From Pseudogemmatithrix spongiicola (lineage in GTDB: Bacteria; Gemmatimonadota; Gemmatimonadetes; Gemmatimonadales; Gemmatimonadaceae): a DNA stretch of 64,000 bases. A program made the position numbers and the translations under genes. Below the pieces are notes generated by a model that saw only the letters and a list, made by a program, of their open reading frames with translations, was not told where the DNA came from and made no database searches. Positions 43,990 through 44,440 of this stretch are shown in pieces. Each line of letters begins with the position of its first letter. Position 1 is the first letter of the stretch. The stretch spans positions 3,038,001 through 3,102,000 of the forward strand of contig NZ_CP130613.1 of assembly GCF_030623445.1 (NCBI RefSeq). The letters are read 5' to 3'.

Positions 43990-44155
43990 GGCACCGGCCT
44001 TCCGCATGCGGGCTCCACGTCGGGCGTGGGCACCACCCAACCGTCCGGGCTCTCGGCAATCGTGATGGGTGGGCGCGGCCCCTGCTCCGTGGCGGTCTTC
44101 ACGAACCGAGGCACGACCGGGCTCGCCCCGCACCCTTGTCCCACGAACATACCGT
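43990..44155 (-). ncRNA. Candidate bridge RNA of IS110-A
   Basis: Upstream non-coding end, boundaries approximate. Reading along the minus strand: target guide 1 TCGTGCCT (44116-44109) equals the left target plus core; hairpin CGGT/ACCG (44108-44093); target guide 2 CCACGGAG (44092-44085) is the complement of right target CTTCGTGG with one G-T wobble. Then donor guide 1 ACGGTTG (44044-44038) equals the element's own 3' end; hairpin CCACG/CGTGG; donor guide 2 GAAG (44002-43999) is the complement of core plus first base, CTTC. This order matches the target loop then donor loop of the IS621 bridge RNA. Transcription itself is not shown. Confidence 0.6.
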
Positions 44156-44171
44156 CGAATCGACATAGAAG

Positions 44172-44271
44172 GCACGAAGGGAGCCGCAATGCCCTCGCCG
44201 TTCCGCCACGCCGCGTAGGATCCCTGCGTGGACGTCGCGAGCTTCCAGGGCCGTCGCGGCTCCCTTCGTGC
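44172..44271. repeat. REP-like palindrome copy 3, central part between the two IS110 elements
   Basis: Flanks GCACGAAGGGAGCCGC (44172-44187) and GCGGCTCCCTTCGTGC (44256-44271) are a perfect 16-bp inverted repeat; inside, CCACGC pairs with GCGTGG. The two missing outer arms are found at 42975-42990 and from 45420. Confidence 0.85.
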
Positions 44272-44284
44272 CTTGTATGTCTCA

Positions 44285-44440
44285 CACGAATGGTGGTAAG
44301 TCATCGGGGCGGCGACAGCTCGATTGTCGTGCCAGGGGCGTGCAGAGCCCGTCACGAAGCGGGAGCGTCGTCGAACCGATCGCGGGACGCCCGAACAGCC
44401 GCTGGGGCCGCGAGCCCGCATGGCGCAAGGCCGGGCGCGC
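44285..44440 (+). ncRNA. Candidate bridge RNA of IS110-B
   Basis: Upstream non-coding end, boundaries approximate. In order: target guide 1 TCGTGCC (44327-44333) equals the left target TTCGTGC plus first core base; hairpin GGGC/GCCC (44336-44350); target guide 2 TCACGAAG (44352-44359) is the complement of right target CTTCGTGG with one U-G wobble. Then donor guide 1 ACAGCCGCT (44395-44403) matches the element's 3' end plus core ACAGCCACT in 8 of 9; hairpin GGGC/GCCC (44405-44417); donor guide 2 CAAG (44426-44429) is the complement of CTTG, core plus first base. Confidence 0.6.

Follow-up and report, generated by a model that had tools for sequence, protein, structure and literature searches.

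The window analysed here, a stretch of 64,000 nucleotides covering bases 3,038,001-3,102,000 of the Pseudogemmatithrix spongiicola genome (3.26 Mb, one contig; G000), contains two insertion elements, A and B, whose genes lie head to head. Relatives at the phylum level and named matches belong to Gemmatimonadota. Element A (IS110, 1181 bp) occupies 42991..44171 on the minus strand, with its core CT at the left end (44171-44170); element B (IS110, 1148 bp) occupies 44272..45419 on the plus strand, with its core CT at 44272-44273. The genome holds five copies of A, with identical ends, and three copies of B, and the left ends are 100% identical among all copies of A and at least 99% identical among those of B. 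Because the flanks differ from copy to copy, aligning the copies fixed the ends directly (the core CT is counted at the left), giving left and right ends of 209 and 24 nt in A and of 194 and 15 nt in B. The initial annotation had ended A at 44167 and started B at 44275, and the multi-copy ends lie 3-4 bases outside both positions. A thus spans CTTCTATG...ACACGGTTG and B spans CTTGTATG...AACACAGCCA, each with a flanking CT next, and the donor sequences are ACACGGTTG-CT-TCTATG for A and AACACAGCCA-CT-TGTATG for B. All eight insertions (five of A, three of B) share one CT core; target duplication is otherwise absent, and the empty site is restored. At 41879-42966 of the window lie adjacent genes whose translations resemble the methionine sulfoxide reductases MsrB and MsrA; a gap of about 20 bp separates their end from the repeat carrying A.

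The A recombinase (315 aa; 43015..43962, minus strand) and the B recombinase (312 aa; 44466..45404, plus strand) are about 50% identical. Both contain PF01548, the DEDD RuvC-like N-terminal domain, and PF02371, the Transposase_20 domain with the catalytic serine. Their nearest solved structures in a PDB match are IS621 and ISCro4, with E-values to IS621 of about 1e-34 to 1e-37 (1.5e-37 for B), and alignment to these two shows that the D, E, D, D and S residues are retained in A (D6, E50, D92, D95 and S234) and in B (D7, E50, D92, D95 and S230). The same residues are catalytic in IS621 (PMC11208158). Membership of the IS110 family is indicated by the domains, the long non-coding left end 5' of the gene, the short right end and insertion at a core. 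The non-coding left ends, 43963..44171 on the minus strand in A and 44272..44465 on the plus strand in B, are predicted to encode bridge RNAs on the basis of guide layout, alignment and chance tests, to which the comparison with an orthologue, L154, is added for B.

Guides in the two left ends

Every guide string quoted in the initial annotation is present once per left end and in the order claimed: a left target guide, a hairpin and a right target guide, followed by a left donor guide, a hairpin and a right donor guide. Positions are numbered from the core C (44171 in A, 44272 in B). TCGTGCC had been named as the left target guide of both elements. It is present in both, and in A the guide TCGTGCCT (44109..44116, minus strand, positions 56-63) agrees with the target at 8/8 positions including the core, whereas in B (44327..44333, plus strand, positions 56-62) the next base is an A that misses the core T. 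The right target guides, CCACGGAG in A (44085..44092, minus strand, positions 80-87) and TCACGAAG in B (44352..44359, plus strand, positions 81-88), are complementary to CTTCGTGG over 8 nt with one wobble, exactly as described. In A the wobble is a G.T pair, and the guide is the perfect complement of CTCCGTGG, the variant found in the copy at L054, matching the majority repeat only through the wobble.

The left donor guides match each element's own 3' end, as had been proposed, with qualifications at the core. ACGGTTG in A (44038..44044, minus strand, positions 128-134) equals the right end of A but is followed by GG, which mismatches the core; ACAGCCGCT in B (44395..44403, plus strand, positions 124-132) matches the donor ACAGCCACT apart from a single G.T wobble at the base preceding the core. 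The mismatches among the guides are thus the core T in B's left target guide (TCGTGCC-A) and the core in A's left donor guide (ACGGTTG-GG). The right donor guide is discontinuous: CATgcgGAAG in A (43999..44008, minus strand, positions 164-173, GAAG at 170) and CATggcgCAAG in B (44419..44429, plus strand, positions 148-158, CAAG at 155). GAAG pairs with CTTC and CAAG with CTTG, and the ATG in CTTcTATG of A and CTTgTATG of B offers a possible pairing partner for the 5' extension CAU. The donor base tracked by this guide lies at position 4 of the element, not at position 1.

Short guides read in a GC-rich stretch by a motivated reader could owe their matches to chance or composition, and minimum free energy (MFE) folding, proposed initially as a check, favours B (z = -2.14 against shuffles) but is no better than shuffles for A (z = +0.57). 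Single-sequence folding, being uninformative for A, was set aside as proof. The layout itself is far from random expectation. A blind search over all core positions on both sides and all four guides returned exactly the multi-copy ends of A and of B, and the layout score was reached by 0/20,000 dinucleotide shuffles and by none of the other same-length stretches of the window (0/4,884 for A and 0/4,888 for B). When right ends were borrowed from relatives, A's joint score was reached 8/100 times because donor ends are conserved among relatives (ACAGTTG-CT); this null, under which only 17/102 loci beat all nulls, was dropped as too strict and replaced by one in which ends are set from the donor side only and targets are permuted. 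A search of the left ends against Rfam 15 gave no match at the gathering cut-offs; at E<=1 the only match was to sX15, sub-threshold and on the wrong strand of A.

Covariation among related elements

Since A and B share a target, the pair alone, offered initially as covariation hard to explain by chance, is not strong proof of it; the proof is supplied by relatives, whose guides do covary. Ends were set from the donor side alone at 76 related loci, 62 of which have distinct guide pairs, and guides taken from alignment columns were scored against target flanks unused in end setting. Among the 62, left target guides pair with their own target at 4.71/7 non-core positions, a figure depressed by one-base alignment shifts in some rows, versus 3.19 with the targets of others; right target guides pair at 5.10/6 positions versus 2.45. 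The own-target fit was matched by 0/20,000 target permutations for either guide. Together with the shuffles and window stretches, this refutes chance and composition as the source of the matches. Donor guides set the ends in this collection, and their high agreement there is therefore not independent, which leaves the target guides as the independent test; the donor guides of A and B themselves are supported by the blind end search. The right donor guide base that covaries with the fourth base of the element sits in a single alignment column, with 72 CTTG/CAAG, 3 CTTA/TAAG and 1 CTTC/GAAG combinations among the 76 loci.

The published work has shown that IS110 elements depend on RNA (PMC11208160, PMC11187229). 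Recognition of the target by the protein alone, or through the repeat hairpin, with the RNA-like matches as relics of, for example, target capture, would suit a target lying within a palindromic repeat, as some transposases recognise such folds. It is nevertheless highly unlikely here: the targets of the relatives are unrelated to one another, with each guide changing to fit at single-base level, and the donor guides match a second sequence that is different in each element. In L155, a relative of A, the left target guide is TCCGGTCT at target CTCCGGT-CT and the right target guide is TCACGGAG at CTCCGTGT, guide and target having matched changes; L073, another relative of A, provides further such changes. 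Palindromes composed of the element end plus adjoining host sequence occur at the right junctions of L155 (TTTAACACGG TTGCT CCGTGTTAAA) and L157 (TTTCAACACAG CTACT CCGTGTTGAAA), and both extend past the guide region.

The internal loops fall where the initial annotation had laid them out. In 51 aligned left ends, both guide pairs flank conserved hairpins in identical columns, and the consensus contains a target-loop hairpin, a donor-loop outer stem and a donor-loop hairpin, with both sides changed in 6/14 pairs. For four stems, including the target-loop outer stem, a sequence's own arms pair better than swapped arms (0/5000 swaps each); in the target-loop outer stem the energy is -20.4 kcal/mol with the own partner versus -12.0 kcal/mol when swapped. 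Support for the predicted structure thus comes from comparison with relatives, MFE folding by itself being weak.

These stems, with their compensatory changes, also bear on whether the left ends, instead of being RNA genes, code for N-terminal extensions of the transposases. Open reading frames do traverse both left ends in the transposase frame, and 24/76 left ends, those of A and B included, have no in-frame stop. In-frame stops interrupt the other 52/76, however, left-end lengths are spread over the three frames (27/26/23), and the annotated ATG is the start of the DEDD domain. A coding extension was rejected on the in-frame stops and the frame spread, and is judged very improbable.

The host repeat and the closest orthologue of B

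The target TTCGTGC-CT-TCGTGG (in full, TTCGTGCCTTCGTGG) holds 7/8 insertions of A and B. The eighth is the A copy L054 (G000:2892221), inserted in TCTGTGC-CT-CCGTGG, the right half of which fits A's right target guide perfectly, better than the majority repeat does. The arm CTTCGTGCCTTCGTGG occurs with no more than one mismatch at 88 sites in the genome, versus 0 for the reversed control; most of these sites form inverted pairs, separated by about 100 bp, around a hairpin that varies by copy. No description of a repeat with these arms was found in a literature search. Further copies lie in the window at 16654, 34861, 58312-58369 and 63879. The arms are built on an 8-base unit, CACGAAGG/CACGAAGA, and the repeat is patchy across the genus, with any match in 6/17 genomes and dialects CTTCGTG, CTCTGTG and CTCCGTG.

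One copy of this repeat encloses the locus described here. The outer half of its left arm, TTCACCACGAAG (42979..42990), is the right target side of A and includes the core AG (CT on the minus strand); the interior between the elements (44172..44271) is an inverted repeat with inner arm halves GCACGAAG and CTTCGTGC, at the 100-bp spacing of intact copies; and the outer half of the right arm, CTTCGTGGTGAA (45420..45431), is the right target side of B including its core CT. Both outer halves were identified from multi-copy flanks and the joined empty site. When the 100 bp between A and B is connected to their outer flanks, one intact repeat results, its arms 100 bp apart as elsewhere. A and B therefore inserted into opposite arms of a single repeat copy. 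This accounts for their head-to-head order, which needs no further explanation.

L154, the closest orthologue of B, lies in a congeneric genome (G004). Its gene is 81% identical to that of B at the DNA level, and its left end aligns with B's without gaps (162/194 identical). Two stem pairs are changed on both sides and so compensated, and the left donor guide, right donor guide and donor ends are unchanged. The right target guide is TCACAGAG at target CTCTGTGG in L154 versus TCACGAAG at CTTCGTGG in B, with two changes in the guide and two in the target. The repeat forms CTTCGTGYCTTCGTGG and CTCTGTGYCTCTGTGG occur at 62 and 7 sites, respectively, in G000 and at 0 and 101 sites in G004, and the two guide bases changed in L154 are exactly those that differ between the dominant repeats of the two genomes. 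The left target guide of L154 fits its own site less well (TCGTGTC versus CTGTGCC, with two wobbles and one mismatch), so clear retuning is confined to the right target guide. These data suggest that target guides may track the host repeat dialect (CTTCGTG versus CTCTGTG) while donor guides stay fixed, and that two half-identical elements hold one target. We put even odds on this proposal; for the tracking of dialect by guide it draws on one clear orthologue pair.

Relation to known systems and proposed mechanism

A and B resemble IS621, for which the bridge RNA was described by Durrant et al. 2024 (PMC11208160) and Hiraizumi et al. 2024 (PMC11208158), in recombinase architecture, catalytic residues, CT core, location of the RNA in the left end, guide order and the discontinuous right donor guide. 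The donor (ACAG...CT-TGTAT) and the position of the target within a repeated extragenic palindrome (REP) are further likenesses to IS621. They differ from it in the target sequence and host repeat, in the distant recombinase similarity and in the right target guide, which is 8 nt long versus 4 in IS621 (extendable to 7); the donor of A, starting with CTTC, is also unlike that of IS621. REP-targeting IS110-type elements such as IS621 (Choi et al. 2003; Tobes and Pareja 2006, as cited in PMC11208160) likewise insert at one set position within a palindromic repeat of many copies, whereas A and B together fill both arms, about 100 bp apart, of one copy.

The upstream non-coding RNA, matching the bottom strand and then the top strand, is shared with the seekRNAs of the IS110-family elements ISEc21 and ISMch6 (Siddiquee et al. 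2024, PMC11187229). Natural redirection between relatives of that type has already been reported (PMC11187229). The ISEc21 and ISMch6 target is a linear coding site, whereas redirection of the A and B type follows a change in the host repeat family, and A and B are set apart as two divergent elements with one target. Classification of A and B as an IS1111-type seekRNA system is scarcely probable. The protein superfamily is common to both groups and IS1111 types also target REP sequences, but in A and B the non-coding region lies upstream of the gene and the guide for the bottom strand comes before that for the top strand; both features agree with IS110 and are the reverse of IS1111 (PMC11187229). 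Neither A nor B has an RNA downstream of its gene or a top-strand guide in first place, as IS1111 does.

A separate IS110/IS1111-type element, C, is present in six copies about 98-99% alike (L034-L039; G000: 1340588, 2343268, 2406612, 2410952, 3147396 and 3150555). It lies within attC-like integron sites (ATAACGTATGCTTCTGCTGC...GGCAGCAAGCGTCGTTAT) and has a long non-coding 3' end. IS1111 elements are known for targeting attC sites, and element C resembles those that do so.

A and B are thus best read, with a probability of roughly 95%, as IS110-group elements each encoding a DEDD/serine recombinase and, within a left end of 194-209 nt, a predicted bridge RNA. This RNA would have two loops, one that binds the target and one that binds the donor. 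In the target loop, the left guide would pair with the bottom-left strand of TTCGTGC-CT-TCGTGG and the right guide with its top-right strand; the donor-loop guides would pair with the ends of the element, which in the published mechanism are joined, right to left, in an excised circle (PMC11208160, PMC11208158). Target and donor would be held together by the bridge RNA, and recombination at the CT core would insert the circle. The host repeat that serves as target is present in dozens of copies, and A and B went into opposing arms of one of them. Transcription, recombinase binding and strand exchange are likely to proceed as in the published systems, by analogy with them. The joined ends of B read TTGACT-17 nt-TATGTC, plausibly a promoter for the RNA; those of A contain the -10-like TATGTC and no clear -35.

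Earlier publications already describe the mechanism, the order of the guides, the targeting of REPs and natural redirection (PMC11208160, PMC11208158, PMC11187229). New are these members, the target common to both, and the parallel difference between a target guide and the host repeat dialect. Bridge-RNA guides are legible from raw sequence in two diverged elements whose phylum is distant from that of E. coli, and the guides and targets read in about 60 related elements provide a resource for choosing natural programmable recombinases with a long (8 nt) right target guide. B and its congeneric orthologue amount to a natural experiment: two bases of the target guide have changed together with the host repeat, and the donor side has stayed constant. 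If the reading is true, this would be an RNA-guided mobile element continually adapting to a repeat that the host can spare and that the element uses as its landing pad.
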